Shown one piece after another: positions 1 through 44,095 of a DNA stretch of 64,000 bases. Made by a program: the position numbers and the translations under genes. Below the pieces are notes generated by a model, which worked only from the letters and a program-made list of their open reading frames with translations, was not told where the DNA came from and searched no databases. Source of the stretch: Astropecten irregularis (taxonomy: Eukaryota; Echinodermata; Asteroidea; Paxillosida; Astropectinidae); contig OZ020244.1 in the NCBI GenBank assembly GCA_963971285.1, positions 4,712,001-4,776,000 on the forward strand. The letters run 5' to 3'. Within the stretch, counting starts at the first letter, position 1. Every line of letters starts with the position of its first letter.

Positions 1-19
1 CGCGTGCGTGTAAATGCTT

Positions 20-30
20 GGGGATTCCCC
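20..30. promoter_or_regulatory. Palindromic kappaB-like motif in satellite
   Basis: GGGGATTCCCC matches the NF-kappaB/Rel consensus GGGRNWYYCC. The decamer GGGGATTCCC is intact at the same place in 31 of the 38 monomers. Seven monomers (starting 8313, 10363, 15525, 17420, 19297, 22196 and 24240) read GCGGATTCCCC, which breaks the G run. Conservation alone is explained by satellite homogenisation, so function is speculative. Confidence 0.35.
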
Positions 31-360
31 TGCGTAAATAACTGTATTTTCGCTTTGGAGTGGACTGAGTTTGAATTATTTAGGCCAAAAAATATAGGTT
101 AGGATTTTCATTTGTTTGTGCTTGTTTTTCAGCCTTTTTAGTGAAGTTCTTTATATTCATACAAAGACAAAGGAGCATAGCAGAGAGGGTTACCCGAGAC
201 GAGGGTAGCAACTGTTGGCCAGTGTTATTGTTGCGCGTTTGCTTCATCAAGCACCTTTTCTTTGACCCCAAGTCAGTCAACTATCCCCAAAACCGGGAAA
301 AAAAACTTTAAAAAACGTCAGTCATGCAAACAAGATGCGAAGAGTCCTCAAAAATAGTCC

Positions 361-435
361 AACCCTAGTTGCCCTAACCCTAGTTGCCCTAACCCTAGCG
401 AACCTAACCCTAGCGAGCCTAACCCTAGCTAGTAG
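361..435. repeat. Telomere-like 15-bp subrepeat block (first monomer)
   Basis: Five units of 15 bp, each beginning AACCCTAG. The first two read AACCCTAGTTGCCCT, followed by variants with GCGAACCT, GCGAGCCT and GCTAGTAG. Each CCCTAACCCTAG core is two telomeric CCCTAA repeats, the second with an A-to-G change, separated by a 3-bp spacer. Every monomer has an equivalent block, but the unit number varies: 6 in the monomers starting at 1034, 3124, 16366 and 37614; 5 in most; 4 in those starting at 21172, 23214, 28189 and 32448. This looks like an ancient telomeric insertion or slippage product captured and amplified inside the satellite, not a functional telomere. Confidence 0.92.
363..395 (-). 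other. Potential G-quadruplex in the telomere-like block
   Basis: The plus strand has CCC runs at 363-365, 372-374, 378-380, 387-389 and 393-395. The minus strand therefore has five GGG runs with loops of 3 and 6 nt, which satisfies the usual G3+N1-7 rule. Equivalent motifs recur in nearly all monomers, with fewer usable runs in those with four subrepeats. Folding is inferred, not shown. Confidence 0.6.
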
Positions 436-813
436 AGTCCACTGGCTGGACAAATTCTTGTTAGCCTTCTTGTTCCACCCCCCCCCCGAAATAAATTGTC
501 GCATAGCCCTGGCCACCCCTCAAAACCCCTGGCTGTGAACTCAACAATCTTGTAGTATTCAACGATTGCTCCTTGCTTACTTTGAAGACTTGTAATATTC
601 AAAAGGAACTGCGATGCATATCGATCCATGCAGGCATTACAATGGATACCGTGCGAAAACTACATAAACAAAATGGCCGCCCCTCTTCCAAGATTGGCCT
701 GTATTTCGAAAAGGGTTCAATTTTGTTCAATTTTTTTTTTGCAGATTCATGGTCAGTGACCACTTCCCTTTGTCTTAAAGGCGGTTTTATAAGGAAATAA
801 AATACTTTATGCA

Positions 814-840
814 CTATATATAGCGAAATCCAAGATGGCG
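814..840 (+). promoter_or_regulatory. TATA-like palindrome followed by AAGATGGCG
   Basis: CTATATATAG (814-823) lies 8 bp upstream of AAGATGGCG (832-840), which resembles a YY1 core (AANATGGC). The pair recurs in every full-length monomer and is removed by the 200-bp deletion in the four short monomers. It could give weak Pol II initiation for satellite transcripts, but no transcript evidence exists here. Confidence 0.2.
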
Positions 841-3784
841 TCATGCCGTTGCAATTTTGTCCTTTAAATGTCGCTAAAGTGAACTGTAGGCAGAAAATAT
901 TGACGGACACAACTTTTGCACTGTCTGACATGTCGTTTTCAACTACTAGTTTCCTTTTAAATCCATTAAAATTACCATAAATTTGATTTTTCCGAAATAA
1001 AGCATACGGCGGCCATTTTTACCATAGTCAACGCGCGTGCGTGTAAATGCTTGGGGATTCCCCTGCGTAAATAACTGTATTTTCGCTTTGGAGTGGACTG
1101 AGTTTGAATCATTTGGGCCAAAAAATATAGGTTAGGATTTTCATTTGTTTGTGCTTGTTTTTCAGCCTTTTTAGTGAAGTTCTTTATATTCATGCAAAGA
1201 CAAAGTTGCATAGCAGAGATGGTTACCCGTGACGAGGGTAGCAACTGTTGGCCAGTGTTATTGTTGCGCGTTTGCTTCATCAAGCACCTTTTCTTTGACC
1301 CCAAGTCAGTCAACTATCCCCAAAACCGGGGAAAAAACTTTATAAAAACATCAGTCTTGCAAACAAGATGCGAAGAGTCCTCAAAAATAGTCCAACCCTA
1401 GTTGCCCTAACCCTAATTGCCCTAACCCTAGTTGTCCTAACCCTAGCGAACCTAACCCTAGCGAGCCTAACCCTAGCTAGTATAGTCCACTGGCTGGACC
1501 AATTCTCGTTAGCCTTCTTGTTCCACCCCCCCCCCCCCCCCCGAAATAAATTGTCGCATAGCCCTGGCCACCCCTCACAACCCCTGGCTGTGAACTCAAC
1601 AATCTTGAAGTATTCAACGATTGCTCCTTGCTTACTTTGAAGACTTGTAATATTCAAAAAGGAACTGCAATGCATATCGATCCATGCATGCATTACAATG
1701 GATACCGTGCTAAAACTACATAAACAAAATGGCCTCCCCTCTTCCAAGATTGGCCTGTATTTCGAAAAGGGTTCAATTTTGTTCAATTTTTTTTTTGCAG
1801 ATTCATGGTCAGTGACCACTTCCCTTTGTCTTAAAGGCGGTTTTATAAGGAAATAAAATACTTTATGCACTATATATAGCGAAATCCAAGATGGCGTCAT
1901 GCCGTTGCAATTTTGTCCTTTAAATGTCGCTAAAGTGAACTGTAGGCAGAAAATATTGACGGACACAACTTTTGCACTGTCTGACATGTCGTTTTCAACT
2001 ACTAGTTTCCTTTTAAATCCATTAAAATTACCATAAATTTGATTTTTCCGAAATAAAGCATACGGCGGCCATGTTTACCATAGTCAACGCGCGTGCGTGT
2101 AAATGCTTGGGGATTCCCCTGCGTAAATAACTGTATTTTCGCTTTGGAGTGGACTGAGTTTGAATTATTTGGGCCAAAAAATATAGGTTAGGATTTTCAT
2201 TTGTTTGTGCTTGTTTTTCAGCCTTTTTAGTGAAGTTCTTTATATTCATACAAAGACAAAGGAGCATAGCAGAGAGGGTTACCCGAGACGAGGGTAGCAA
2301 CTGTTGGCCAGTGTTATTGTTGCGCGTTTGCTTCATCAAGCACCTTTTCTTTGACCCCAAGTCAGTCAACTATCCCCAAAACCGGGAAAAAAAACTTTAA
2401 AAAACGTCAGTCATGCAAACAAGATGCGAAGAGTCCTCAAAAATAGTCCAACCCTAGTTGCCCTAACCCTAGTTGCCCTAACCCTAGCGAACCTAACCCT
2501 AGCGAGCCTAACCCTAGCTAGTAGAGTCCACTGGCTGGACAAATTCTTGTTAGCCTTCTTGTTCCACCCCCCCCCCCGAAATAAATTGTCGCATAGCCCT
2601 GGCCACCCCTCAAAACCCCTGGCTGTGAACTCAACAATCTTGTAGTATTCAACGATTGCTCCTTGCTTACTTTGAAGACTTGTAATATTCAAAAGGAACT
2701 GCGATGCATATCGATCCATGCAGGCATTACAATGGATACCGTGCGAAAACTACATAAACAAAATGGCCGCCCCTCTTCCAAGATTGGCCTGTATTTCGAA
2801 AAGGGTTCAATTTTGTTCAATTTTTTTTTTGCAGATTCATGGTCAGTGACCACTTCCCTTTGTCTTAAAGGCGGTTTTATAAGGAAATAAAATACTTTAT
2901 GCACTATATATAGCGAAATCCAAGATGGCGTCATGCCGTTGCAATTTTGTCCTTTAAATGTCGCTAAAGTGAACTGTAGGCAGAAAATATTGACGGACAC
3001 AACTTTTGCACTGTCTGACATGTCGTTTTCAACTACTAGTTTCCTTTTAAATCCATTAAAATTACCATAAATTTGATTTTTCCGAAATAAAGCATACGGC
3101 GGCCATTTTTACCATAGTCAACGCGCGTGCGTGTAAATGCTTGGGGATTCCCCTGCGTAAATAACTGTATTTTCGCTTTGGAGTGGACTGAGTTTGAATC
3201 ATTTGGGCCAAAAAATATAGGTTAGGATTTTCATTTGTTTGTGCTTGTTTTTCAGCCTTTTTAGTGAAGTTCTTTATATTCATGCAAAGACAAAGGTGCA
3301 TAGCAGAGATGGTTACCCGTGACGAGGGTAGCAACTGTTGGCCAGTGTTATTGTTGCGCGTTTGCTTCATCAAGCACCTTTTCTTTGACCCCAAGTCAGT
3401 CAACTATCCCCAAAACCGGGGAAAAAACTTTATAAAAACATCAGTCTTGCAAACAAGATGCGAAGAGTCCTCAAAAATAGTCCAACCCTAGTTGCCCTAA
3501 CCCTAATTGCCCTAACCCTAGTTGTCCTAACCCTAGCGAACCTAACCCTAGCGAGCCTAACCCTAGCTAGTATAGTCCACTGGCTGGACCAATTCTCGTT
3601 AGCCTTCTTGTTCCACCCCCCCCCCCGAAATAAATTGTCGCATAGCCCTGGCCACCCCTCACAACCCCTGGCTGTGAACTCAACAATCTTGAAGTATTCA
3701 ACGATTGCTCCTTGCTTACTTTGAAGACTTGTAATATTCAAAAAGGAACTGCGATGCATATCGATCCATGCATACATTACAATG

Positions 3785-6700
3785 GATACCGTGCTAAAAC
3801 TACTTAAACAAAATGGCCGACCCTCTTCCAAGATTGGCCTGTATTTCGAAAAGGGTTAAATTTTGTTCAATTGTTTTTGCAGATTCATGGTCAGTGACCA
3901 CTTCCCTTTGTCTTAAAGGCGGTTGTATAAGGAAATAAAATACTTTATGCACTATATATAGAGAAATCCAAGATGGCGTCATGCCGTTGCAATTTTGTCC
4001 TTTAAATGTCGCTAAAGTGAATTGTAGGCAGAAAATATTGACGGACACAACTTTTGCACTGTCTGACATGTCGTTTTCAACTATTAGTTTCCTTTTAAAT
4101 CCATTAAAATTACCATAAATTTAATTTTTCCGAAATAAAGCATACGGCGGCCATGTTTACCATAGTCAACGCGCGTGCGTGTAAATGCTTGGGGATTCCC
4201 CTGCGTAAATAACTGTATTTTCGCTTTGGAGTGGACTGAGTTTGAATAATTTGGGCCAAAAAATATAGGTTAGGATTTTCATTTGTTTGTGCTTGTTCTT
4301 CAGCCTTTTTAGTGAAGTTCTTTATATTCATGCAAAGACAAAGGAGCATAGCAGAGAGGGTTACCCGAGACGAGGGTAGCAACTGTTGGCCAGTGTTATT
4401 GTTGCGCGTTTGCTTCATCAAGCACCTTTTCTTTGACCCAAAGTCAGTCAACTATCCCCAAAACCGGAAAAAAAACCTTTATAAAAACATCAGTATTGCA
4501 AACAAGATGCGAAGAGTCCTCAAAAATAGTCCAACCCTAGTTGCCCTAACCCTAGTTGCCCTAACCCTAGCGAGCCTAACCCTAGCGAGCCTAACCCTAG
4601 CTAGTAGAGTCCACTGGCTGGACCAATTCTTGTTAGCCTTCTTGTTCCACCCCCCCCCCCCGAAATAAATTGTCGCATAGCCCTGGCCACCCCTCACAAC
4701 CCCTGGCTGTGAACTCAACAATCTTGAAGTATTCAACGATTGCTCCTTGCTTACTTTGAAGACTTGTAATATTCAAAAAGGAACTGCGATGCATATCGAT
4801 CCATGCATGCAATACAATGGATACCGTGCTAAAACTACATAAACAAAATGGCCGCCCCTCTTCCAAGATTGGCCTGTATATCGAAAAGGGTTAAATTTTG
4901 TTCAATTGTTTTTGCAGATTCATGGTCAGTGACCACTTCCCTTTGTCTTAAAGGCGGTTTTATAAGGAAATAAAATACTTTATGCACTATATATAGCGAA
5001 ATCCAAGATGGCGTCATGCCGTTGCAATTTTGTACTTTAAATGTCGCTAAAGTGAACTGTAGGCAGAAAATATTGACGGACACAACTTTTGCACTGTCTG
5101 ACATGTCGTTTTCAACTATTAGTTTCCTTTTAAATCCATTAAAATACCATAAATTTAATTTTTCCGAAATAAAGCATACGGCGGCCATGTTTACCATAGT
5201 CAACGCGCGTGCGTGTAAATGCTTGGGGATTCCCCTGCGTAAATAACTGTATTTTCGCTTTGGAGTGGACTGAGTTTGAATTATTTGGGCCAAACAAATA
5301 TAGGTTAGGATTTTCATTTGTTTGTGCTTGTTTTTCAGACTTTTTAGTGAAGTTCTTCATATTCATGCAAAGACAAAGGAGCATAGCAGAGAGGGTTACC
5401 CGAGACGAGGGTAGCAACTGTTGGCTAGTGTTATTTTTGCGCGTTTGCTTCATCAAGCACCTTTTCTTTGACCCCAAGTCAGTCAACTATCCCCCAAACC
5501 GGGGAAAAAAATTTATAAAAACATCAGTCTTGCAAACAAGATGCGAAGAGTCCTCAAAAATAGTCCAACCCTAGTTGCCCTAACCCTAGTTGCCCTAACC
5601 CTAGCGAACCTAACCCTAGCGAGCCTAACCCTAGCTAGTAGAGTCCACTGGCTGGACCAATTCTTGTTAGCCTTCTTGTTCCACCCCCCCCCCCCCGAAA
5701 TAAATTGTCGCATAGCCCTGGCCACCCCTCACAACCCCTGGCTGTGAACTCAACAATCTTGAAGTATTCAACGATTGCTCCTTGCTTACTTTGAAGACTT
5801 GTAATATTCAAAAAGGAACTGCGATGCATATCGATCCATGCATACTTTACAATGGATACCGTGCTAAAACTACTTAAACAAAATGGCCGACCCTCTTCCA
5901 AGATTGGCCTGTATTTCGAAAAGGGTTAAATTTTGTTCAATTGTTTTTGCAGATTCATGGTCAGTGACCACTTCCCTTTGTCTTAAAGGCGGTTGTATAA
6001 GGAAATAAAATACTTTATGCACTATATATAGAGAAATCCAAGATGGCGTCATGCCGTTGCAATTTTGTCCTTTAAATGTCGCTAAAGTGAATTGTAGGCA
6101 GAAAATATTGACGGACACAACTTTTGCACTGTCTGACATGTCGTTTTCAACTATTAGTTTCCTTTTAAATCCATTAAAATTACCATAAATTTAATTTTTC
6201 CGAAATAAAGCATACGGCGGCCATGTTTACCATAGTCAACGCGCGTGCGTGTAAATGCTTGGGGATTCCCCTGCGTAAATAACTGTATTTTCGCTTTGGA
6301 GTGGACTGAGTTTGAATAATTTGGGCCAAAAAATATAGGTTAGGATTTTCATTTGTTTGTGCTTGTTCTTCAGCCTTTTTAGTGAAGTTCTTTATATTCA
6401 TGCAAAGACAAAGGAGCATAGCAGAGAGGGTTACCCGAGACGAGGGTAGCAACTGTTGGCCAGTGTTATTGTTGCGCGTTTGCTTCATCAAGCACCTTTT
6501 CTTTGACCCAAAGTCAGTCAACTATCCCCAAAACCGGAAAAAAAACCTTTATAAAAACATCAGTATTGCAAACAAGATGCGAAGAGTCCTCAAAAATAGT
6601 CCAACCCTAGTTGCCCTAACCCTAGTTGCCCTAACCCTAGCGAGCCTAACCCTAGCGAGCCTAACCCTAGCTAGTAGAGTCCACTGGCTGGACCAATTCT

Positions 6701-7670
6701 TGTTAGCCTTCTTGTTCCACCCCCCCCCCCCGAAATAAATTGTCGCATAGCCCTGGCCACCCCTCACAACCCCTGGCTGTGAACTCAACAATCTTGAAGT
6801 ATTCAACGATTGCTCCTTGCTTACTTTGAAGACTTGTAATATTCAAAAAGGAACTGCGATGCATATCGATCCATGCATGCAATACAATGGATACCGTGCT
6901 AAAACTACATAAACAAAATGGCCGCCCCTCTTCCAAGATTGGCCTGTATATCGAAAAGGGTTAAATTTTGTTCAATTGTTTTTGCAGATTCATGGTCAGT
7001 GACCACTTCCCTTTGTCTTAAAGGCGGTTTTATAAGGAAATAAAATACTTTATGCACTATATATAGCGAAATCCAAGATGGCGTCATGCCGTTGCAATTT
7101 TGTACTTTAAATGTCGCTAAAGTGAACTGTAGGCAGAAAATATTGACGGACACAACTTTTGCACTGTCTGACATGTCGTTTTCAACTATTAGTTTCCTTT
7201 TAAATCCATTAAAATACCATAAATTTAATTTTTCCGAAATAAAGCATACGGCGGCCATGTTTACCATAGTCAACGCGCGTGCGTGTAAATGCTTGGGGAT
7301 TCCCCTGCGTAAATAACTGTATTTTCGCTTTGGAGTGGACTGAGTTTGAATTATTTGGGCCAAACAAATATAGGTTAGGATTTTCATTTGTTTGTGCTTG
7401 TTTTTCAGACTTTTTAGTGAAGTTCTTCATATTCATGCAAAGACAAAGGAGCATAGCAGAGAGGGTTACCCGAGACGAGGGTAGCAACTGTTGGCTAGTG
7501 TTATTTTTGCGCGTTTGCTTCATCAAGCACCTTTTCTTTGACCCCAAGTCAGTCAACTATCCCCCAAACCGGGGAAAAAAATTTATAAAAACATCAGTCT
7601 TGCAAACAAGATGCGAAGAGTCCTCAAAAATAGTCCAACCCTAGTTGCCCTAACCCTAGTTGCCCTAACC
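3785..7670. repeat. Recent 2.07-kb segmental copy inside the satellite
   Basis: About 1.8 kb from roughly 3785 to 5600 recurs at an offset of exactly 2070 bp (roughly 5855 to 7670). By eye it is base-for-base identical, including shared rare variants such as TTGAATAATTTGGG and CAATACAATGG. The match breaks at the ends where C-tract length and an ATT insertion differ. A related copy of part of this block reappears near 13386-14764. Confidence 0.75.
4172..5205. repeat. Representative satellite monomer (1034 bp)
   Basis: A typical full-length unit. In order it carries a CG-rich CGCGTGCGTG start, a GGGGATTCCCC palindrome, an A/T-rich section with pyrimidine tracts ending in TTCAG, and five 15-bp telomere-like subrepeats. 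Next come a C tract followed by GAAATAAA, an ATGCATATCGAT palindromic patch, a TTTTTGCAG tract, a CTATATATAG palindrome followed by AAGATGGCG, and a second AAATAAAG near the end. The splice-acceptor-like and poly(A)-signal-like words are seen directly. Whether any is used is unknown. I find no plausible protein product. Confidence 0.9.
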
Positions 7671-10600
7671 CTAGCGAGCCTAACCCTAGCGAGCCTAACC
7701 CTAGCTAGTAGAGTCCACTGGCTGGACCAATTCTTGTTAGCCTTCTTGTTCCACCCCCCCCCCCCGAAATAAATTGTCGCATAGCCCTGGCCACCCCTCA
7801 CAACCCCTGGCTGTGAACTCAACAATCTTGAAGTATTCAACGATATTGCTCCTTGCTTACTTTGAAGACTTGTAATATTCAAAATGGAACTGCGATGCAT
7901 ATCGATCCATGCATGCATTACAATGGATACCGTGCTAAAACTATATAAACAAAATGGCCGCCCCTCTTCCAAGATTGGCCTGTATTTCGAAAAGGGTTAA
8001 ATTTTGTTCAATTGTTTTTGCAGATTCATGGTCAGTGACCACTTCCCTTTGTCTTAAAGGCGGTTTTATAAGGAAATAAAATACTTTATGCACTATATAT
8101 AGCGAAATCCAAGATGGCGTCATGCCGTTGCAATTTTGTCCTTTAAATGTCGCTAAAGTGAACTGTAGGCAGAAAATATTGACGGACACAACTTTTGCAC
8201 TGTCTGACATGTCGTTTTCAACTATTAGTTTCCTTTTAAATCCATTAAAATTACCATAAATTTGATTTTTCCGAAATAAAGCATACGGCGGCCATGTTTA
8301 CCATAGAAAACGCGCGTGCGTGTAAATGCTTGCGGATTCCCCTGCGTAAATAACTGAGTTTGAATTATTTGGGCCAAAAAATATAGGTTAGGATTTTCAT
8401 TTGTTTGTGCTTGTTTTTCAGCCTTTTTAGTGAAGTTCTTTATTCATGCAAAGACAAAGGAGCATAGCAGAGAGGGTTACCCGAGACGAGGGTAGCAACA
8501 TTACTGTTGGCCAGTGTTATTGTTGCGCGTTTGCTTCATCAAGCACCTTTTCTTTGACCCAAAGTCAGTCAACTATCCCCAAAACCGGGGAAAAAAATTT
8601 ATAAAAACATCAGTATTGCAAACAAGATGCGAAGAGTCCTCAAAAATAGTCCAACCCTAGTTGCCCTAACCCTAGTTGCCCTAACCCTAGCGAGCCTAAC
8701 CCTAGCGAGCCTAACCCTAGCTAGTAGAGTCCACTGGCTGGACCAATTCTTGTTAGCCTTCTTGTTCCACCCCCCCCCCCCGAAATAAATTGTCGCATAG
8801 CCCTGGCCACCCCTCACAACCCCTGGCTGTGAACTCAACAATCTTGAAGTATTCAACGATTGCTCCTTGCTTACTTTGAAGACTTGTAATATTCAAAAAG
8901 GAACTGCGATGCATATCGATCCATGCATGCAATACAATGGATACCGTGCTAAAACTACATAAACAAAATGGCCGCCCCTCTTCCAAGATTGGCCTGTATA
9001 TCGAAAAGGGTTAAATTTTGTTCAATTGTTTTTGCAGATTCATGGTCAGTGACCACTTCCCTTTGTCTTAAAGGCGGTTTTATAAGGAAATAAAATACTT
9101 TATGCACTATATATAGCGAAATCCAAGATGGCGTCATGCCGTTGCAATTTTGTACTTTAAATGTCGCTAAAGTGAACTGTAGGCAGAAAATATTGACGGA
9201 CACAACTTTTGCACTGTCTGACATGTCGTTTTCAACTATTAGTTTCCTTTTAAATCCATTAAAATACCATAAATTTAATTTTTCCGAAATAAAGCATACG
9301 GCGGCCATGTTTACCATAGTCAACGCGCGTGCGTGTAAATGCTTGGGGATTCCCCTGCGTAAATAACTGTATTTTCGCTTTGGAGTGGACTGAGTTTGAA
9401 TTATTTGGGCCAAACAAATATAGGTTAGGATTTTCATTTGTTTGTGCTTGTTTTTCAGACTTTTTAGTGAAGTTCTTCATATTCATGCAAAGACAAAGGA
9501 GCATAGCAGAGAGGGTTACCCGAGACGAGGGTAGCAACTGTTGGCTAGTGTTATTTTTGCGCGTTTGCTTCATCAAGCACCTTTTCTTTGACCCCAAGTC
9601 AGTCAACTATCCCCCAAACCGGGGAAAAAAATTTATAAAAACATCAGTCTTGCAAACAAGATGCGAAGAGTCCTCAAAAATAGTCCAACCCTAGTTGCCC
9701 TAACCCTAGTTGCCCTAACCCTAGCGAGCCTAACCCTAGCGAGCCTAACCCTAGCTAGTAGAGTCCACTGGCTGGACCAATTCTTGTTAGCCTTCTTGTT
9801 CCACCCCCCCCCCCCGAAATAAATTGTCGCATAGCCCTGGCCACCCCTCACAACCCCTGGCTGTGAACTCAACAATCTTGAAGTATTCAACGATATTGCT
9901 CCTTGCTTACTTTGAAGACTTGTAATATTCAAAATGGAACTGCGATGCATATCGATCCATGCATGCATTACAATGGATACCGTGCTAAAACTATATAAAC
10001 AAAATGGCCGCCCCTCTTCCAAGATTGGCCTGTATTTCGAAAAGGGTTAAATTTTGTTCAATTGTTTTTGCAGATTCATGGTCAGTGACCACTTCCCTTT
10101 GTCTTAAAGGCGGTTTTATAAGGAAATAAAATACTTTATGCACTATATATAGCGAAATCCAAGATGGCGTCATGCCGTTGCAATTTTGTCCTTTAAATGT
10201 CGCTAAAGTGAACTGTAGGCAGAAAATATTGACGGACACAACTTTTGCACTGTCTGACATGTCGTTTTCAACTATTAGTTTCCTTTTAAATCCATTAAAA
10301 TTACCATAAATTTGATTTTTCCGAAATAAAGCATACGGCGGCCATGTTTACCATAGAAAACGCGCGTGCGTGTAAATGCTTGCGGATTCCCCTGCGTAAA
10401 TAACTGAGTTTGAATTATTTGGGCCAAAAAATATAGGTTAGGATTTTCATTTGTTTGTGCTTGTTTTTCAGCCTTTTTAGTGAAGTTCTTTATTCATGCA
10501 AAGACAAAGGAGCATAGCAGAGAGGGTTACCCGAGACGAGGGTAGCAACATTACTGTTGGCCAGTGTTATTGTTGCGCGTTTGCTTCATCAAGCACCTTT

Positions 10601-25074: not shown

Positions 25075-28000
25075 CGCGTGCGTGTAAATGCTTGGGGATT
25101 CCCCTGCGTATTAAAATAACTGTATTTTCGCTTTGGAGTAGACTGAGTTTGAATTATTTGGGCCAAAAAATATAGGTTAGGATTTTTATTTGTTTGTGCT
25201 TGTTTTTCAGCCTTTTTAGTGAAGTTCTTTATATTCATGCAAAGACAAAGGAGCATAGCAGAGAGGGTTACCCGAGACGAGGGTAGCAACTGTTGGCCAG
25301 TGTTATTCTTGCGCGTTTGCTTCATCAAGCACCTTTTCTTTGACCCCAAGTCAGTCAACTATCCCCAAAACCGGGGAAAAAACGTTATAAAAACATCAGT
25401 CTTGCAAACAAGATGCGAAGAGTCCTCAAAAATAGTCCAACCCTAGTTGCCCTAACGCTAGTTGCCCTAACCCTAGCGAACCTAACCCTAGCGAGCCTAA
25501 CCCTAGCTAGTAGAGTCCACTGGCTGGACCAATTCTTGTTAGCCTTCTTGTTCCACCCCCCCCCCCCCGAAATAAATTGTCGCATAGCACTTGCCACCCC
25601 TCACAACCCCTGGCTGTGAACTCAACAATCTTGAAGTATTCAACGATTGCTCCTTGCTTACTTTGAAGACTTGTAATATTCAAAAAAGGAACTGCGATGC
25701 ATATCGATCCATGCATGCATTACAATGGATACCGTGCTAAAACTACATAAACAAAATGGCCGCCCCTCTTCCAAGATTGGCCTGTATTTCGAAAAGGGTT
25801 AAATTTTGTTCAATTTTTTTTGCAGATTCATGGTCAGTGACCACTTCCCTTTGTCTTAAAGGCGGTTTTATAAGGAAATAAAATACTTTATGCACTATAT
25901 ATAGCGAAATCCAAGATGGCGTCATGCCGTTGCAATTTTATCCTTTAAATGTCGCTAAAGTGAACTGTAGGCAGAAAATATTGACGGACACAACTTTTGC
26001 ACTGTCTGACATGTCGTTTTCAACTATTAGTTTCCTTTTAAATCCATTAAAATTACCATAAATTTGATTTTTCCGAAATAAAGCATACGGCGGCCATGTT
26101 TACCATAGTCAACGCGCGTGCGTGTAAATGCTTGGGGATTCCCGTGCGTAAATAACTGTATTTTCGCTTTGGAGTGGACTGAGTTTGAATTATTTGGGCC
26201 AAAAAATATAGGTTAGGATTTTCATTTCTTTGTGCTTGTTTTTCAGCCTTTTTAGTGAAGTTCTTTATATTCATGCAAAGACAAAGGAGCATAGCAGAGA
26301 GGGTTACCCGAGACGAGGGTAGCAACTGTTCGCCAGTGTTATTGTTGCGCGTTTGCTTCATCAAGCACCTTTTCTTTGACCACAAGTCAGTCAACTATCC
26401 CCAAAACCGGGGAAAAAAACTTTATAAAAACATCAGTCTTGCAAACAAGATGCGAAGAGTCCTCAAAAATAGTCCAACCCTAGTTGCCCTAACCCTAGTT
26501 GCCCTAACCCTAGCGAACCTAACCCTAGCGAGCCTAACCCTAGCTAGTAGAGTCCACTGGCTGGACCAATTCTTGTTAGCCTTCTTGTTCCACCCCCCCC
26601 CCCCCCCCGAAATAAATTGTCGCATAGCCCTGGCCACCCCTCACAACCCCTGGCTGTGAACTCAACAATCTTGAAGTATTCAACGATTGCTCCTTGCTTA
26701 CTTTGAAGACTTGTAATATTCAAAAAGGAACTGCGTTGCATATCGATCCATGCATGCATTACAATGGATACCGTGCTAAAACTACATAAACAAAATGGCC
26801 CCCCCTCTTCCAAGATTGGCCTGTATTTCGAAAAGGGTTCAATTTTGTTCAATTGTTTTTGCAGATTCATGGTCAGTGACCACTTCCCTTTGTCTTAAAG
26901 GCGGTTTTATAAGGAAATAAAATACTTTATGCACTATATATAGCGAAATCCAAGAAGGCGTCATACCGTTGCAATTTTGTCCTTTAAATGTCGCTAAAGT
27001 GAACTGTAGGCAGAACATATTGACGGACACAACTTTTGCACTGTCTGACATGTCGTTTTCAACTATTATCTTCCTTTTAAATCCATTAAAATTGCCATAA
27101 ATTTGATTTTTCCGAAATAAAGCATACGGCGGCCATGTTTACCATAGTCAACGCGCGTGCGTGTAAATGCTTGGGGATTCCCCTGCGTAAATAACTGTAT
27201 TTTTGCTTTGGAGTGGACTGAGTTTGAATTATTTGGGCCAAAAAATATAGGTTAGGATTTTCATTTGTTTGTGCTTGTTTTTCAGCCTTTTTAGTGAAGT
27301 TCTTTATATTCATGCAAAGACAAAGGAGCATAGCAGAGAGGGTTACCCGAGACGAGGGTAGCAAATGTTGGCCAGTGTTATTGCTGCGCGTTTGCTTCAT
27401 CAAGCACCTTTTCTTTGACCCCAAGTCAGTCAACTATCCCCAAAACCGGGGAAAAAACTTTCTAAAAACATCAGTCTTGCAAACAAGATGCGAAGAGTCC
27501 TCAAAAATAGTCCAACCCTAGTTGCCCTAACCCTAGTTGCCCTAACCCTAGCGAACCTAACCCTAGCGAGCCTAACCCTAGCTAGTAGAGTCCACTGGCT
27601 GGACCAATTCTTGTTAGCCTTCTTGTTCCACCCCCCCCCCCCTGAAATAAATTGTCGCATAGCCCTGGCCACCCCTCACAACCCCTGGCTGTGAACTCAA
27701 CAATCTTGAAGTATTCAACGATTGCTCCTTGCTTACTTTGAAGACTTGTAATATTCAAAAAGAAACTGCGATGCATATCGATCCATGCATGCATTACAAT
27801 GGATACCGTGCTAAAACTACATAAACAAAATGGCCGCCCCTCTTCCAAGATTGGCCTGTATTTCGAAAAGGGTTCAATTTTGTTCAATTGTTTTTGCAGA
27901 TTCATGGTCAGTGACAACTTCCCTTTGTCTTAAAGGCGGTTTTATATGGAAATAAAATACTTTATGCACTATATATAGCGAAATCCAAGATGGCGTCATG

Positions 28001-31000
28001 CCGTTGCAATTTTGTCCTTTAAATGTCGCTAAAGTGAACTGTAGGCAGAAAATATTGACGGACACAACTTTTGCACTGTCTGACATGTCGTTTTCAACTA
28101 TTAGTTTCCTTTTAAATCCATTAAAATTACCATAAATTGGATTTTTCCGAAATAAAGCATACGGCGGCCATGTTTACCATAGTCAACGCGCGTGCGTGTA
28201 AAGGCTTGGGGATTCCCCTGCGTAAATAACTGTATTTTCGCTTTGGAGTGGACTGAGTTTGAATTATTTGGGCCAAAATATATAGGTTAGGATTTTAATT
28301 TGTTTGTGCTTGTTTTTCAGCCTTTTTAGTGAAGTTCTTTATATTCATGCAAAGACAAAGGAGCATAGCAGAGAGGGTTACCCGAGACGAGGGTAGCAAC
28401 TGTTAATTGGACAGTGTTATTGTTGCGCGTTTGCTTCATCAAGCACCTTTTCTTTGACCCCAAGTCCGTCAACTATCCCCAAAACCGGGGAAAAAAACTT
28501 TATAAAAACATCAGTCTTGCAAACAAGATGCGAAGAGTCCTCAAAAATAGTCCAACCCTAGTTGCCCTAACCCTAGCGAACCTAACCCTAGCGAGCCTAA
28601 CCCTAGCTAGTAGAGTCCACTGGCTGGACCAATTTTTGTTCGCCTTCTTGTTCCACCACCCAACCTCCGAAATAAATTGTCGCATAGCCATGGCCACCCC
28701 TCACAACCCCTGGCTGTGAACTCAACAATCTTGAAGTATTCAACGATTGCTCCTTGCTTACTTTGAAGACTTGTAATATTCAAAAAGGAACTGCGATGCA
28801 TATCGATCCATGCATGCATTACAATGGATACCGTGCTAAAACTACATAAACAAAATGGCCGCCCCTCTTCCAAGATTGGCCTGTATTTCGAAAAGGGTTC
28901 AATTTTGTTCAATTGTTTTTGCAGATTCATGGCCAGTGACCACTTCCCTTTGTCTTAAAGGCGGTTTTATAAGGAAATAAAATACTTTATGCACTATATA
29001 TAGCGAAATCCAAGATGGCGTCATGCCGTTGCAATTTTGTCCTTTAAATGTCGCTAAAGTGAACTGTAGGCAGAAAATATTGACGGACACAACTTTTGCA
29101 CTGTCTGGTATGTCGTTTTCAACTATTAGTTTCCTTTTAAATCCATTAAAATTACCATAAATTTGATTTTTCCGAAATAGAGCATACGGCGGCCATGTTT
29201 ACCACAGTCAACGCGCGTGCGTGTAAATGCTTGGGGATTCCCCTGCGTAAATAACTGTATTTTCGATTTGGAGTGGACTGAGTTTGAATTATTTGGGCAA
29301 AAAAATATAGCTTAGGATTTTCATTTGTTTGTGCTTGTTTTTCAGCCTTTTTAGTGAAGTTGTTTATATTCATGCAAAGACAAAGGAGCATACCAGAGAG
29401 GGTTACCCGAGACGAGGGTAGCAACTGTTGGCCAGTGTTATTGTTGCGCGTTTGGTTCATCAAGCACCTTTTCTTTGACCCCAAGTCAGTCAACTATCCC
29501 CAAAACCGGGGAAAAAACTTTATAAAAACATCAGTCTTGCAAACAAGATGCGAAGAGTCCTCAAAAATAGTCCAACCCTAGTTGCCCTAACCCTAGTTGC
29601 CCTAACCCTAGCGAACCTAACCCTAGCGACCCTAACCCTAGTTAGTAGAGTCCACTGGCTGGACCAATTCTTGTTAGCCTTCTTGTTAAACCCCCCCCCC
29701 CCCCGAAATAAATTGTCGCATAGCCCTGGCCACCCCTCACAACCCCTGGCTGTGAACTCAACAATCTTGAAGTATTCAACGATTGCTCCTTGCTTACTTT
29801 GAAGACTTGTAATATTCAAAAAGGAACTGCGATGCATATCGATCCATGCATGCATTACAATGGATACCGTGCTAAAACTACATAAACAAAATGGCCGCCC
29901 CTCTTCCAAGATTGGCCTGTATTTCGAAAAGGGTTCAATTTTGTTCAATTGTTTTTGCAGATTCATGGTCAGTGACCACTTCCCTTTGTCTTAAAGGCGG
30001 TTTTTTAAGGAAATAAAATACTTTATGCACTATATATAGCGAAATCCAAGATGGCGTCATGCCGTTGCAATTTTGTCCTTTAAATGTCGCTAAAGTGAAC
30101 TGTAGGCAGAAAATATTGACGGACACAACTTTTGCACTGTCTGACATGTCGTTTTCAACTATTAGTTTCCTTTTAAATCCATTAAAATTACCATAAATTA
30201 GATTTTTCCTAAATAAAGCATACGGCGGCCATGTTGACCATAGTCAACGCGCGTGCGTGTAAATGCTTGGGGATTCCCCTGCGTAAATAACTGTATTTTC
30301 GCTTTGGAGTGGACTGAGTTTGAATTATTTGGGCCAAAAAATATAGGTTAGGATTTTTATTTGTTTGTGCTTGTTTTTCAGCCTTTTTAGTGAAGTTCTT
30401 TATATTCATGCAAAGACAAAGGAGCATAGCAGAGAGGGTTACCCGTGACGAGGGTAGCAACTGTTGGCCAGTGTTATTGTTGCGCGTTTGCTTCATCAAG
30501 CACCTTTTCTTTGACCCCAAGTCAGTCAACTATCCCCAAAACCGGGGAAAAAACTTTATAAAAACATCAGTCTTGCAAACAAGATGCGAAGAGTCCTCAA
30601 AAATAGTCCAACCCTAGTTGCCCTCACCCTAGTTGCCCTAACCCTAGCGAACCTAACCCTATCGAGCCTAACCCTAGCTAGTAGAGTCCACTGGCTGGAC
30701 CAATTCTTGTTAGCCTTCTTGTTCCACCCCCCAACCCCCCCCCCCCCGAAATAAATTGTCGCATAGCCCTGGCCACCCCTCACAACCCCTGGCTGTGAAC
30801 TCAACAATCTTGATGTATTCAACGATTGCTCCTTGCTTACTTTGAAGACTTGTAATATTAAAAAAGAAACTGCGATGCATATCGATCCATGCATGCATTA
30901 CAATGGATACCGTGCTAAAACTACATAAACAAAATGGCCGCCCCTCTTCCAAGATTGGCCTGTATTTCGAAAAGGGTTAAATTTTGTTCAATTGTTTTTG

Positions 31001-31707
31001 CAGATTCATGGTCAGTGACCACTTCCCTTTGTCTTAAAGGCAGTTTTATAAGGAAATAAAATACTTTATGCACTATATATAGCGAAATCAAAGATGGCGT
31101 CATGTCGTTGCAATTTTGTCCTTTAAATGTCGCTAAAGTGAACTGTAGGCAGAAAATATTGACGGACACAACTTTTGCACTGTCTGACATGTCGTTTTCA
31201 ACTATTAGTTTCCTTTTAAATCCATTAAAATTACCATAAATTTGATTTTTCCGAAATAAAGCATACGGCGGCCATGTTTACCATAGTCAACGCGCGTGCG
31301 TGTAAATGCTTGGGGATTCCCCTGCGTAAATAACTGTTTTTTCGCTTTGGAGTGGACTGAGTTTGAATTATTTGGGCCAAAAAATATAGGTTAGGATTTT
31401 CATTTGTTTGTGCTTGTTTTTCAGCCTTTTTAGTGAAGTTCTTTATATTCATGCAAAGACAAAGGAGCATAGCAGAGAGGGTTACCCGAGACGAGGGTAG
31501 CAACTGTTGGCCAGTGTTATTGTTGCGCGTTTGCTTCATCAAGCACCTTTTCTTTGACCCCAAGGCAGTCAACTATCCCCAAAACCGGGGAAAAAACTTT
31601 ATAAAAACATCAGTCTTGCAAACAAGATGCGAAGAGTCCTCAAAAATAGTCCAACCCTAGTTGCCCTAACCCTAGTTGCCCTAACCCTAGCGAACCTAAC
31701 CCTAGCG

Positions 31708-31947
31708 AGCCTAACCCTAGCTAGTAGAGTTCACTGGCTGGACCAATTCTTGTTAGCCTTCTTGTTCCACCCCCCCCCCCCCCCGAAATAAATTGTCGCA
31801 TAGCCCTGGCCACCCCTCACAACCCCTAGCCTAACCCTAGCTAGTAGAGTCCACTGGCTGGACCAATTCTATTAAGCCTTCTTCTTCCACCCCCCCCCCC
31901 CCGAAATAAATTGTCGCATAGCCCTGGCCACCCCTCACAACCCCTGG
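31708..31947. repeat. 120-bp tandem duplication inside one satellite monomer
   Basis: The segment 31708-31827 (from AGCCTAACCCTAG through the C tract to AACCCCT) is followed directly by a diverged second copy, 31828-31947. The second copy carries ATTAAGCC and CTTCTTCC variants, so the duplication is not brand new or arose between different monomers. It explains the 1155-bp unit. Confidence 0.85.
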
Positions 31948-32447
31948 CTGTGAACTCAACAATCTTTAAGTATTCAACGATTGCTCCTTGCTTACTTTGA
32001 AGACTTGAGATATTAAAAAAGGAACTGCGATGCATATCGATCCATGTATGCATTACAATGGATACCGTGCTAAAACTACATAAACAAAATGGCCGCCCCT
32101 CTTTCAAGATTGGCCTGTATTTCGAAAAGGGTTAAATTTTGTTCAATTTTTTTTGCAGATTCATGGTCAGTGACCACTTCCCTTTATCTTAAAGGCGGTT
32201 TTATACAGAAATAAAATACTTTATGCACTATATATAGCGAAATCCAAGATGGCGTCATGCCGTTGCAATTTTGTCCTTTAAATGTCGCTAAAGTGAACTG
32301 TAGGCAGAAAATATTGACGGACACAACTTTTGCACTGTCTGACATGTCGTTTTCAACTATTAGTTTCCTTTTAAATCCATTAAAATTACCATAAATTAGA
32401 TTTTTTCGAAATAAAGCATACGGCGGCCATGTTTACCATAGTCAACG

Positions 32448-35400
32448 CGCGTGCGTGTAAATGCTTGGGGATTCCCCTGCGTTAATAACTGTATTTTCGC
32501 TGTGGAGTGGACTGAGTTTGAATTATTTTGGCCAAAAAATATAGGTTAGGATTTTCATTTGTTTGTGCTTGTTTTTCAGCCTTTTTAGTGAAGTTCTTTA
32601 TATTCATGCAAAGACAAAGGAGCATAGCAGAGAGGGTTACACGAGACGAGGGTAGCAACTGTTGGCCAGTGTTATTGTTGCGCGTTTGCTTCATCAAGCA
32701 CCTTTTCTTTGACCCCAAGGCAGTCAACTACCCCCAAAACCGGGGAAAAAACTTTATAAAAACATCAGTCTTGCAAACAAGATGCGAAGAGTCCTCAAAA
32801 ATAGTCCAACCCTAGTTGCCCTAACCCTAGTTGCCCTAACCCTAGCGAACCTAACCCTAGCTAGTAGAGTCCACTGGCTGGACCAATTCTTGTTAGCCTT
32901 CTTGTTCCACCCCCCCCCCCCCCCCCAAAAAATAAATTGTCGCATAGCCCTGGCCACCCCTCACAACCCCTGGCTGTGAACTCAACAATCTTTTAGTATT
33001 CAACGATTGCTCCTTGCTTACTTTGAAGACTTGTAATATTCAAAAAGGAACTGCGATGCATATCGATCCATGCATGCATTACAATGGATAGGCCTACCGT
33101 GCTAAAACTACATAAACAAAATGGCCGCCCCTCTTCCAAAATTGGCCTGTATTTCGAAAAGGGTTCAATTTTGTTCAATTTTTTTTTGCAGATTCATGGT
33201 CAGTGACCACTTCCCTTTGTCTTAAAGGCGGTTTTATAAGAAAATAAAATACTTTATGCACTATATATAGCGAAATCCAAGATGGCGTCATGCCGTTGCA
33301 ATTTTGTCCTTTAAATGTCGCTAAAGTGAACTGTCGGCAGAAAATATTGACGGACACAACTTTTGCACTGTCTGACATGTCGTTTTCAACTATTAGTTTC
33401 CTTTTAAATCCATTAAAATTACCATAAATTAGATTTTTCCTAAATGAAGCATACGGCGGCCATGTTTACCATAGTCAACGTGCGTGCGTGTAAATGCTTG
33501 GGGATTCCCCTGCGTAAATAACTGTATTTTCGCTTTGGAGTGAACTGAGTTTGAATTATTTGGGCCAAAAAATATAGGTTAGGATTTTCATTTGTTTGTG
33601 CTTGTTTTTCAGCCTTTTTAGTGAAGTTCTTTATATTCATGCAAAGACAAAGGAGCATAGCAGAGAGGGTTACACGAGACGAGGGTAGCAACTGTTGGCC
33701 AGTGTTATTGTTGCGCGTTTGCTTCATCAAGCACCTTTTCTTTGACCCCAAGGCAGTCAACTACCCCCAAAACCGGGGAAAAAACTTTATAAAAACATCA
33801 GTCTTGCAAACAAGATGCGAAGAGTCCTCAAAAATAGTCCAACCCTAGTTGCCCTAACCCTAGTTGCCCTAACCCTAGCGAACCTAACCCTAGCTAGTAG
33901 AGTCCACTGGCTGGACCAATTCTTGTTAGCCTTCTTGTTCCACCCCCCCCCCCCCCAAAAAAAATAAATTGTCGCATAGCCCTGGCCACCCCTCACAACC
34001 CCTGGCTGTGAACTCAACAATCTTTTAGTATTCAACGATTGCTCCTTGCTTACTTTGAAGACTTGTAATATTCAAAAAGGAACTGCGATGCATATCGATC
34101 CATGCATGCATTACAATGGATAGGCCTACCGTGCTAAAACTACATAAACAAAATGGCCGCCCCTCTTCCAAAATTGGCCTGTATTTCGAAAAGGGTTCAA
34201 TTTTGTTCAATTTTTTTTTGCAGATTCATGGTCAGTGACCACTTCCCTTTGTCTTAAAGGCGGTTTTATAAGAAAATAAAATACTTTATGCACTATATAT
34301 AGCGAAATCCAAGATGGCGTCATGCCGTTGCAATTTTGTCCTTTAAATGTCGCTAAAGTGAACTGTCGGCAGAAAATATTGACGGACACAACTTTTGCAC
34401 TGTCTGACATGTCGTTTTCAACTATTAGTTTCCTTTTAAATCCATTAAAATTACCATAAATTAGATTTTTCCTAAATGAAGCATACGGCGGCCATGTTTA
34501 CCATAGTCAACGTGCGTGCGTGTAAATGCTTGGGGATTCCCCTGCGTAAATAACTGTATTTTCGCTTTGGAGTGAACTGAGTTTGAATTATTTGGGCCAA
34601 AAAATATAGGTTAGGATTTTCATTTGTTTGTGCTTGTTTTTCAGCCTTTTTAGTGAAGTTCTTTATATTCATGCAAAGACAAAGGAGCATAGCAGAGAGG
34701 GTTACCCGTGACGAGGGAAGCAACTGTTGGCCAGTGTTATTGTTGCGCGTTTGCTTCATCAAGCACCTTTTCTTTGACCCCAAGTCAGTCAACTATCCCC
34801 AAAACCGGGGAAAAAAACTTTATAAAAACGTCAGTCTTGCAAACAAGATGCGAAGAGTCCTCAAAAATAGTCCAACCCTAGTTGCCCTAACCCTAGTTGC
34901 CCTAACCCTAACGAACCTAACCCTAACGAGCCTTACCCTATATAGCTAGTATAGAGTCCACTGGCTGGAAAAATTCTTTTTAGCCTTCTTCTTCCACCCC
35001 CCCCCCCCGAAATAAATTGTCGCATAGCCCTGGCCACCCCTCACAACCTGGCTGTGAACTCAACAATCTTGAAGTATTCAACGATTGCTCCTTGCTTACT
35101 TTGAAGACTTGAGATATTAAAAAAGGAACTGCGATGCATATCGATCCATGTATGCATTACAATGGATACCGTGCTAAAACTACATAAACAAAATGGCCGC
35201 CCCTCTTTCAAGATTGGCCTGTATTTCGAAAAGGGTTAAATTTTGTTCAATTTTTTTTGCAGATTCATGGTCAGTGACCACTTCCCTTTATCTTAAAGGC
35301 GGTTTTATACAGAAATAAAATACTTTATGCACTATATATAGCGAAATCCAAGATGGCGTCATGCCGTTGCAATTTTGTCCTTTAAATGTCGCTAAAGTGA

Positions 35401-38400
35401 ACTGTAGGCAGAAAATATTGACGGACACAACTTTTGCACTGTCTGACATGTCGTTTTCAACTATTAGTTTCCTTTTAAATCCATTAAAATTACCATAAAT
35501 TAGATTTTTTCGAAATAAAGCATACGGCGGCCATGTTTACCATAGTCAACGCGCGTGCGTGTAAATGCTTGGGGATTCCCCTGCGTTAATAACTGTATTT
35601 TCGCTGTGGAGTGGACTGAGTTTGAATTATTTTGGCCAAAAAATATAGGTTAGGATTTTCATTTGTTTGTGCTTGTTTTTCAGCCTTTTTAGTGAAGTTC
35701 TTTATATTCATGCAAAGACAAAGGAGCATAGCAGAGAGGGTTACACGAGACGAGGGTAGCAACTGTTGGCCAGTGTTATTGTTGCGCGTTTGCTTCATCA
35801 AGCACCTTTTCTTTGACCCCAAGGCAGTCAACTACCCCCAAAACCGGGGAAAAAACTTTATAAAAACATCAGTCTTGCAAACAAGATGCGAAGAGTCCTC
35901 AAAAATAGTCCAACCCTAGTTGCCCTAACCCTAGTTGCCCTAACCCTAGCGAACCTAACCCTAGCTAGTAGAGTCCACTGGCTGGACCAATTCTTGTTAG
36001 CCTTCTTGTTCCACCCCCCCCCCAAAAAAATAAATTGTCGCATAGCCCTGGCCACCCCTCACAACCCCTGGCTGTGAACTCAACAATCTTTTAGTATTCA
36101 ACGATTGCTCCTTTCTTACTTTGAAGACTTGTAATATTCAAAAAGGAACTGCGATGCATATCGATCCATGCATGCATTACAATGGATAGGCCTACCGTGC
36201 TAAAACTACATAAACAAAATGGCCGCCCCTCTTCCAAAATTGGCCTGTATTTCGAAAAGGGTTCAATTTTGTTCAATTTTTTTTTGCAGATTCATGGTCA
36301 GTGACCACTTCCCTTTGTCTTAAAGGCGGTTTTATAAGAAAATAAAATACTTTATGCACTATATATAGCGAAATCCAAGATGGCGTCATGCCGTTGCAAT
36401 TTTGTCCTTTAAATGTCGCTAAAGTGAACTGTCGGCAGAAAATATTGACGGACACAACTTTTGCACTGTCTGACATGTCGTTTTCAACTATTAGTTTCCT
36501 TTTAAATCCATTAAAATTACCATAAATTAGATTTTTCCTAAATGAAGCATACGGCGGCCATGTTTACCATAGTCAACGTGCGTGCGTGTAAATGCTTGGG
36601 GATTCCCCTGCGTAAATAACTGTATTTTCGCTTTGGAGTGAACTGAGTTTGAATTATTTGGGCCAAAAAATATAGGTTAGGATTTTCATTTGTTTGTGCT
36701 TGTTTTTCAGCCTTTTTAGTGAAGTTCTTTATATTCATGCAAAGACAAAGGAGCATAGCAGAGAGGGTTACCCGTGACGAGGGAAGCAACTGTTGGCCAG
36801 TGTTATTGTTGCGCGTTTGCTTCATCAAGCACCTTTTCTTTGACCCCAAGTCAGTCAACTATCCCCAAAACCGGGGAAAAAACTTTATAAAAACGTCAGT
36901 CTTGCAAACAAGATGCGAAGAGTCCTCAAAAATAGTCCAACCCTAGTTGCCCTAACCCTAGTTGCCCTAACCCTAACGAACCTAACCCTAACGAGCCTAA
37001 CCCTATATAGCTAGTATAGAGTCCACTGGCTGGAAAAATTCTTTTTAGCCTTCTTCTTCCACCCCCCCCCGAAATAAATTGTCGCATAGCCCTGGCCACC
37101 CCTCACAACCTGGCTGTGAACTCAACAATCTTGAAGTATTCAACGATTGCTCCTTGCTTACTTTGAAGACTTGAGATATTAAAAAAGGAACTGCGATGCA
37201 TATCGATCCATGTATGCATTACAATGGATACCGTGCTAAAACTACATAAACAAAATGGCCGCCCCTCTTTCAAGATTGGCCTGTATTTCGAAAAGGGTTA
37301 AATTTTGTTCAATTTTTTTTGCAGATTCATGGTCAGTGACCACTTCCCTTTATCTTAAAGGCGGTTTTATACAGAAATAAAATACTTTATGCACTATATA
37401 TAGCGAAATCCAAGATGGCGTCATGCCGTTGCAATTTTGTCCTTTAAATGTCGCTAAAGTGAACTGTAGGCAGAAAATATTGACGGACACAACTTTTGCA
37501 CTGTCTGACATGTCGTTTTCAACTATTAGTTTCCTTTTAAATCCATTAAAATTACCATAAATTAGATTTTTTCGAAATAAAGCATACGGCGGCCATGTTT
37601 ACCATAGTCAACGCGCGTGCGTGTAAATGCTTGGGGATTCCCCTGCGTTAATAACTGTATTTTCGCTGTGGAGTGGACTGAGTTTGAATTATTTTGGCCA
37701 AAAAATATAGGTTAGGATTTTCATTTGTTTGTGCTTGTTTTTCAGCCTTTTTAGTGAAGTTCTTTATATTCATGCAAAGACAAAGGAGCATAGCAGAGAG
37801 GGTTACCCGTGACGAGGGTAGCAACTGTTGGCCAGTGTTATTGTTGCGCGTTTGCTTCATCAAGCACCTTTTCTTTGACCCCAAGTCAGTCAACTATCCC
37901 CAAAACCGGGGAAAAAACTTTATAAAAACGTCAGTCTTGCAAACAAGATGCGAAGAGTCCTCAAAAATAGTCCAACCCTAGTTGCCCTAACCCTAGTTGC
38001 CCTAACCCTAGTTGCCCTAACCCTAGCGAACCTAACCCTAGCGAACCTAACCCTAGCTAGTAGAGTCCACTGGCTGGACCAATTCTTGTTACCCTTCTTG
38101 TTCCACCCCCCCCCCGAAAGAAATTGTCTCATAGCCCTGGCCACCCCTCACAACCCCTGGCTGTGAACTCAACAATCTTGAAGTATTCAACGATTGCTCC
38201 TTGCTAACTTTGAAGACTTGTAATATTCAAAAAGGAACTGCGATGCATATCGATCCATGCATGCATTACAATGGATACCGTGCTAAAACTACATAAACAG
38301 AATGGCCGCCCCTCTTCCAAGATTGGCCTGTATTTCGAAAAGGGTTAAATTTTGTTCATTTTTTTTGCAGATTCATGGTCAGTGACCACTTCCCTTTGTC

Positions 38401-38444
38401 TTAAAGGCGGTTTTATAAGGAAATAAAATACTTTATGCACTATA
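32448..38444. repeat. Right-edge satellite block with its own variant set
   Basis: Units starting 32448, 35552 and 37614 form one type (GCGTTAATAACTG, GCTGTGGAG, ATTTTGGCC). Units starting 33481, 34513 and 36579 form another (GTGCGTGCGTG start, AAATGAAGC). A 6-bp insertion, GGATAGGCCTACCG, marks three of the repeats. Offsets of 1032, 2062 and 2066 bp between near-identical segments show local re-amplification close to the array boundary. The last unit stops at 38444. Confidence 0.75.
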
Positions 38445-38446
38445 AA

Positions 38447-38911
38447 GGGTGCAGACCAGTAAATAGGCCCAAATCGGTCCGCGGAGCTCATTAATTTTTT
38501 GTATACCCTCAAAATCTTTTCTCTTAAAGCGTCTGGTGAGCCCTACGTGGTAAGTCTTGTAGACAAAATGGATGGAACCCGATCACCAGAGTTTGGACTT
38601 TTTTTGAGCCATTTGGATGAAATCAGGCCATAAATTCGCTCTATTTTTGCCCTGTAGTGGAGGGGTACTATTTTTGGTCTGGCACCGGTCAATTCGGTCG
38701 TTTTAGGGGTATTTTTCTTTGAATGTACTTTTCGGCAAAAAGTCATCTGTTAACCTATAGAATATTAAAAAGAAAATGAAAATTGAAGTTTTCACCTTTA
38801 TTTTGCCGTATTGGTCGGTTGCCTCAGAAACTTCTGAGTATTTTTAATATTTTTTTTTAATTGGCCATTTTGCGTGGGAGCCTATGTGAATTTATTTACT
38901 GGTCTGCACCC
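38447..38911. mobile_element. MITE-like element, 465 bp, 19-bp perfect TIRs
   Basis: GGGTGCAGACCAGTAAATA at 38447-38465 is exactly inverted at 38893-38911. ATAAA occurs immediately outside both ends (38442-38446 and 38912-38916), a plausible 5-bp target-site duplication. The interior is AT-rich and has no transposase. I cannot assign a superfamily. It sits exactly where the satellite ends, and the sequence on its right side is not satellite. Confidence 0.8.
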
Positions 38912-44060: not shown

Positions 44061-44095
44061 ACATGAATGTGGTGCTCCCCTCTGGACCTTGCAAT

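Follow-up and report, generated by a model that had tools for sequence, protein, structure and literature searches.

A satellite with telomere-like motifs in the sea star Astropecten irregularis is probably the tandemly multiplied interior of a composite mobile element

How satellite DNA jumps between chromosomes is an old question. In bacteria, composite transposons consist of two direct copies of a mobile element, which move the cargo lying between them and leave one target duplication. Satellites with built-in TTAGGG motifs are already known, as are satellite-like arrays in Helentrons, MITEs and TRIMs. For example, PaB6 of Prospero autumnale, a plant with TTAGGG telomeres, is a pericentromeric satellite of 10^4-10^6 copies per 1C with a 249-bp monomer of which several TTAGGG-type motifs are an integral part, and the portion of that report available to us makes no mention of transposon ends (PMC4273535). 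According to the available portions of the respective accounts, satellite-like repeats form the centre of non-autonomous Helentrons such as the oyster Cg_HINE, which are dispersed genome-wide and make no target-site duplication (PMC7492417); bivalve TRIMs, of less than about 1000 bp, combine terminal direct repeats of 100-250 bp with a primer site and a polypurine tract and also occur as solo repeats and tandem arrays (PMC6934838); and in the Xenopus elements Xstir and miDNA4, one MITE-like element contains a satellite monomer or array, with microhomology at its A/T-rich edges (PMC12628747).

The repeat described here resembles PaB6 in its integral TTAGGG-type motifs, but its monomer measures approximately 1034 bp, carries these motifs in a 15-bp minisatellite and is dispersed by an element. 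With the Helentrons it shares satellite-like repeats as the centre of a non-autonomous, dispersed element, and it differs from them in having 4-bp target-site duplications as well as long direct repeats whose ends are inverted repeats. Like the bivalve TRIMs, it has terminal direct repeats, solo repeats and tandem arrays, whereas its terminal repeat, termed E1, is 465 bp long and has 19-bp inverted ends. The Xenopus elements are similar in combining a satellite, a MITE-like element and microhomology at A/T-rich edges, although here two E1 copies bracket the repeats. Bacterial composite transposons are matched in the two direct element copies around cargo and the single outer duplication, but the present case is eukaryotic, its ends are non-autonomous and the cargo consists of a satellite unit, with no gene seen in it. 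In the literature, as far as its available text extends, we saw no description of a satellite array enclosed by a directly oriented pair of copies of an inverted-repeat element and, outside these, a single target duplication, and we therefore call the satellite array carried between two E1 copies new, as a variant of transposon-borne satellite DNA.

The window, i.e., the whole stretch of 64,000 nucleotides that was analysed, corresponds to C1:4712001-4776000 (contig C1, OZ020244.1, is 39.04 Mb long; assembly GCA_963971285.1 comprises 475.7 Mb in 168 contigs). Its positions 1..38446 are occupied on the plus strand by 38 head-to-tail monomers of approximately 1034 bp each (length range 834-1155 bp), with a mean pairwise identity of 97.2%. 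These are the right part of an array that starts approximately 15 kb left of the window. The preliminary description, made from the window alone, had proposed an array of at least 38 kb ending at 38444 and holding hundreds of TTAGGG-type motifs, and had advised a search of the assembly for its location and total length. That search placed the array at C1:4697053-4750446 (53,394 bp, 52 monomer anchors), with 258 motif sites and a right end at the junction of satellite and E1 at 38446/38447. Such a long, homogenised head-to-tail array of similar monomers is satellite DNA in the usual sense.

Identity between monomers was highest at lag 2, with two-monomer higher-order blocks (e.g., u5-u17, near-exact), and in other blocks of the array 838-bp variants alternate with full monomers as 1877-bp dimers. 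We infer from the lag-2 pattern, which is a usual mark of such processes, that unequal exchange or a similar amplification of dimers took place. An example of the approximately 838-bp variant, with a deletion of about 180 bp (consensus ~792-973), lies at window 15530..16370 (+), and a 1155-bp monomer with an internal 122-bp tandem duplication at 31297..32451 (+). Haplotype analysis revealed mosaic monomers with switch intervals too wide to place, and for this reason a candidate recombination hot spot at the minisatellite was dropped. A poly-C run 3' of the minisatellite (window 478-487, and the same place in most monomers) is 6-18 long where found and differs in length even among otherwise near-identical monomers, so that it is either hypermutable or assembly noise. 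C-runs of the G-quadruplex type number 49 in the window part of the array.

The right border of the array is formed by E1 (window 38447..38911, plus strand; 465 bp), which has 19-bp perfect terminal inverted repeats, starts with GGG and ends with CCC. It is followed at 38912..38915 (+) by ATAA, the right copy of a 4-bp target-site duplication, of which the left copy stands directly before a second E1 outside the window (C1:4696076-4696481). This left E1 comprises positions 1-402 only, lacks 403-465 and abuts the satellite at consensus position 629. The two E1 copies are in direct orientation around the satellite, and the ATAA pair brackets 54.8 kb (C1:4696076-4750911) made up of E1, the 53.4-kb array and E1. 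Terminal inverted repeats and a target duplication of fixed length are the properties of a MITE or TIR DNA transposon, and one E1 was found alone with ATAG on both sides. Just inside the left E1, an insertion resembling a further element, E2, interrupts the satellite within the first monomer. E2 is MITE-like by eye, lies in the window at 38923-39370 and has the inverted ends CTAGATGACGC; pieces of E2 also adjoin the left ends of satellite arrays.

The satellite-E1 junction had 130 matches genome-wide (0 for a backward-pattern control), and the 100 of these that were listed lie on ten contigs (C1, C8, C9, C10, C11, C12, C15, C16, C19 and C20), singly or in series of approximately 1.49-1.52 kb. 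A 29-mer of the satellite had 285 exact matches genome-wide (183 plus, 102 minus; backward control 0), of which the 100 listed form seven runs at C1 4.26-4.93 Mb. A family specific to C1, suggested by a substitute pattern with 20 of 20 matches on that contig, is ruled out by the junctions on at least ten contigs.

Fourteen insertions of the form E1...E1 were looked at, counted separately from five further arrays on C1 (4.55, 4.63, 4.80, 4.81 and 4.90 Mb). Ten of the fourteen loci (nine single, one array) were taken from the listed junctions, with both expected ends fetched; seven had both E1 ends, and all seven had exact 4-bp direct repeats. Three of the fourteen were untestable, E1 being absent from the expected left end (two) or from both ends (one). 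Exact 4-bp direct repeats were present at 11 of 11 testable insertions, each consisting of two direct copies of a TIR transposon around cargo with one outer target duplication. The duplications were TGAG and GTAA at solitary E1-satellite-E1 copies at C1:11.44 Mb and C1:31.09 Mb (the latter with internal deletions in both E1 and read from the printed flanks), TTAG at the C1:4.26-Mb array, ATAA at the window array, TGAG at the C8:19.90-Mb array, and TCAA, ATAG, TTCA, TACA, TAAA and CGAG at six further loci from the junction list. When flanks were swapped among 12 loci (the 11 insertions and the lone E1), 4 of 132 ordered pairs matched by manual count.

Quite probably, the satellite monomer constitutes the interior of a non-autonomous mobile element (E1, an internal region of approximately 1.03 kb, E1) and was multiplied in tandem inside one insertion. 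A putative transposase acting in trans would recognise the outermost pair of E1 copies by their inverted repeats and move all that lies between them as one composite element. The inside occurs in two tandem forms, either E1 plus internal region with a period of ~1.49-1.52 kb or the internal region alone, as in the window array. In the C1:4.26-Mb array, eight E1 copies are spaced at 1494 bp, and E1-free units of approximately 1.02 kb occur among them. Unequal exchange between repeats, often of two monomers per step, could have expanded the array after insertion; an already long array may instead have been inserted.

Additionally, the junctions bear on the order of events. Amongst the E1-free junctions caught by pattern in the 53.4-kb array, 45 of 48 read CACTATATATAGCG and the other three end in GAG, and in the C1:4.26-Mb array this junction is CACTATAAATAGCG (three cases). 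E1-bearing junctions consist of CACTATAAA, E1 and TATATAGCG in that order, so that the A/T run is 8 bases long at E1-free junctions versus 6 + 6 at E1-bearing ones. These lengths are those expected if E1 entered the satellite and duplicated 4 bp there (TAAA/TATA, differing in one base) and thus favour an order of satellite first and E1 second, then mobilisation of whatever stands between two E1 copies. The E1-free junctions would represent the pre-insertion site of E1 or later losses, and E1 may alternatively have been lost from an E1-satellite-E1 element.

Five further C1 arrays lacked the full E1...E1 structure in the pieces read. The 4.63-Mb array has E1 on the left, and on the right the satellite ends without E1; at 4.55 Mb, E1 is on the left and at the right edge the satellite runs into other sequence without E1 (800 bp read). 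A truncated E1 (186-465) is on the right of the 4.81-Mb array, and the pieces from 4.80 Mb, 4.90 Mb and the left of 4.81 Mb were wholly inside satellite. Seven edge pieces at 4.55, 4.80, 4.81 and 4.90 Mb comprised two with an E1 border (one truncated), four within satellite and one without E1. Sequence from the left of the window array is found again at C1:4.55 and 4.63 Mb, and sequence from its right at 4.81 Mb. Each of the arrays at 4.55, 4.63, 4.70 and 4.81 Mb thus has a flank in common with another, so that duplication of larger local segments has contributed to their spread as well. A 40-bp tandem array of 88 copies lies between satellite arrays at C1:4648766-4652275.

The proposal of the preliminary description that each monomer of about 1.03 kb contains 4-6 copies of a 15-bp unit was borne out: a minisatellite block of such units, with 4-6 AACCCTA cores each, was present in 38 of 38 window monomers. 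The first block (window 361..433, +) has five 15-bp units of AACCCTAG plus spacer, each a YAACCCTAR site, and the last (37974..38061, +) has six units. The 12-mer CCCTAACCCTAG, which had been named for the unit, holds only in part, as exact copies number only 70 in the window while the core common to all units, YAACCCTAR, has 183 sites. The nearly constant part of the unit is CCTAACCCTAG, with spacers that are mostly TTGC, CGAA or CGAG, the last two also written GCGAA or GCGAG after CCTAACCCTAG. All 183 sites are on the plus strand and none lies outside the array, compared with a mean of 2.42 and a maximum of 7 in 100 shuffles and with 10 sites in 170 kb of background, taken from 18 other loci of 5-10 kb in this genome that were selected for containing neither the array nor telomere repeats. 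On the basis of the shuffles, a chance origin was rejected for the tandem array and the motif density. Exact CCCTAA occurs 84 times in the window, 81 of these inside the array. The block is not an interstitial telomeric sequence in the sense of an uninterrupted hexamer run, as a spacer every 15 bp breaks the hexamer-like pairs.

In simulations, 100 of 400,000 random 15-bp tandem units had a 12-mer within one mismatch of (CCCTAA)2. Telomere likeness by chance is unlikely for one preselected minisatellite, an argument weakened because a genome scan passes over many repeats. All 14 copies sampled from nine other contigs contained the block, with 2-6 intact sites each, one block being rearranged and one decayed; it was also found in 10 units of the C1:4.26-Mb array (3 sites each) and in the C1:11.44-Mb and 31.09-Mb copies. 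The minisatellite would be a constant module of the internal region that travels with it, most likely captured or born by slippage in the ancestor of the element, and may be kept at least partly by slippage and conversion.

Across the 14 dispersed copies, core substitutions amounted to 9/576 (1.6%) versus 86/1897 (4.5%) in the flanks (p = 0.0007), and the nine-base core was intact in 58 of 64 units versus about 66% expected. These values are a hint of core constraint rather than proof, because the units were non-independent and picked by best match, slippage homogenises them and two core positions were allowed to be ambiguous. Within the window array, tested on 18 representatives of the 38 monomers with the poly-C left out, the core did not differ significantly from the remainder, either by segregating columns (6/45 vs 181/945, p = 0.44) or by cells (7/792 vs 262/16635, p = 0.14). 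The YAACCCTAR motif matches the TTAGGG telomere of this genome and YTAGGGTTR, given as the TRF1/TRF2 site in the available part of the source (PMC5651854). A functional role as a landing pad, in which the YTAGGGTTR cluster would be bound by TRF-type telomere Myb proteins of the host and would help the element or its arrays to replicate, recombine, stay silent or be placed in the nucleus, appears rather doubtful. Selection of this kind would explain the 58 intact cores and the rarer core substitutions, which slippage homogenisation and the choice of units by best match may also have produced. Telomere-binding proteins may be attracted by the satellite motif, as had been suggested.

The telomere of this genome is (TTAGGG)n; the final 5 kb of C10 contain 816 hexamers, and another 45 terminate C1. 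A subtelomeric position, one of those considered initially, does not agree with the location of the array at 4.70-4.75 Mb of the 39.04-Mb contig or with the absence of the satellite from eight contig ends (the first 10 kb and last 5 kb of C1, C8, C9 and C10 were read, of which 5 kb at the C10 start are N). Of these eight, only the two on the right of C1 and C10 have terminal TTAGGG repeats and are hence shown to be chromosome ends. The 100 listed junctions (of 130) are at least 1.2 Mb from contig ends. The preliminary description had itself named dispersed short arrays unlinked to telomeres as half of what would speak against its reading, and this is the distribution observed. At the C10 start (stretch L020, 6100-9100; first 5 kb N), an unrelated satellite with a unit of approximately 180 bp and a higher period of 1680 bp repeatedly carries telomere-like motifs head to head, CCCTAATTTTAGGGTTAGGG, so that at least two unrelated tandem families here have such motifs. 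On C8 (stretch L018, 7403-7984), 582 bp of perfect CCCTAA repeats lie 7.4 kb inside the contig start and are followed by a degenerate repeat of the CTCTAACCCCCACTCTCA type.

The two direct terminal repeats around a centre, the 4-bp duplications, the lone E1 and the tandem units sharing E1 would also suit a TRIM with E1 as its long terminal repeat, spread by reverse transcription and forming arrays via recombination between repeats. Terminal repeats of TRIMs typically have TG...CA ends, whereas E1 has GGG...CCC and 19-bp perfect inverted ends. By eye, no tRNA-primer site or polypurine tract was seen beside E1, the centre starting with TATATAGCG and ending with CACTATAAA. The A/T run of 8 versus 6 + 6 bases is what would be expected if 4 bp of the satellite had been duplicated, three of the four bases being alike. 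According to the available part of the bivalve account, solo repeats and tandem forms are reported and animal TRIMs can be without a recognisable primer site (PMC6934838); on balance a TRIM is unlikely. Less probable still is an ordinary satellite, perhaps pericentromeric, whose arrays would owe their spread entirely to segmental duplication and unequal exchange and which E1 would have joined late, as a passenger. The seven match runs at C1 4.26-4.93 Mb (among the 100 matches listed), the flanks shared between arrays and the repeat-rich surroundings with other tandem arrays agree with it, but other contigs carry single copies and short arrays, and since every one of these that was tested has a 4-bp duplication of its own, they require insertion and not duplication of flanks.

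A telomeric derivation, in which a fusion or a telomerase-repaired break put telomeric DNA inside the monomer before its amplification, is likewise improbable, to about the same degree as the TRIM. The motif is the telomere repeat of this genome, and a 6-bp direct repeat, AGTCCA, flanks the minisatellite block as repair of a staggered break might leave it (180 of 5000 flank shuffles reach 6 bp). Against this, there is no long perfect hexamer run, all window sites are on one strand, the array is internal in its contig and a fusion is not needed; a search of the genome with a single exact 20-base pattern for copies that lack the block gave 0 matches and hence no pre-insertion state. The relic of a telomere fusion, as first envisaged, gives way to a simpler origin, since at least ten contigs have copies, and these are bordered by an element that has target-site duplications. 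Rather than a chromosome-end or fusion relic, the telomere-motif repeat most likely represents the central part of a small mobile element that at least ten contigs carry, and a break-repair origin of the minisatellite module is compatible with the E1-composite explanation.

If the composite-element explanation is true, a satellite at one locus is the inside of a mobile element at another, and telomere-like motifs in satellites need not mean telomere fusions. The element may additionally spread hundreds of potential telomere-protein sites through chromosome arms. Because two E1 copies with a perfect 4-bp duplication outside them enclose a 53-kb array (54.8 kb in total), the route of transposition plus expansion is directly testable at this locus.

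Other repeats were observed in the surroundings of the array. A Pfam scan of eight flank reading frames gave one match, an endonuclease domain (PF03372, E 8.5e-9) at window 43415-43852, within a broken LINE-like element on the minus strand (42399-44094). In searches for the source of the DNA, an exact 38-mer had no match in viral contigs and a 29-mer none in genome contigs, and Rfam likewise gave 0 matches. A 129-bp tandem array with higher periods occupies window 51502-54562, and a three-copy array at C1:4645733-4646116 also has a period of 129 bp. From window 61500-64000 to C1:4782583 extends a second kilobase-scale tandem array of about 3.3 copies with a period of approximately 2785 bp, whose long matches have 99.1-99.5% identity. 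We take one of its reading frames, by eye, to resemble a transposase.
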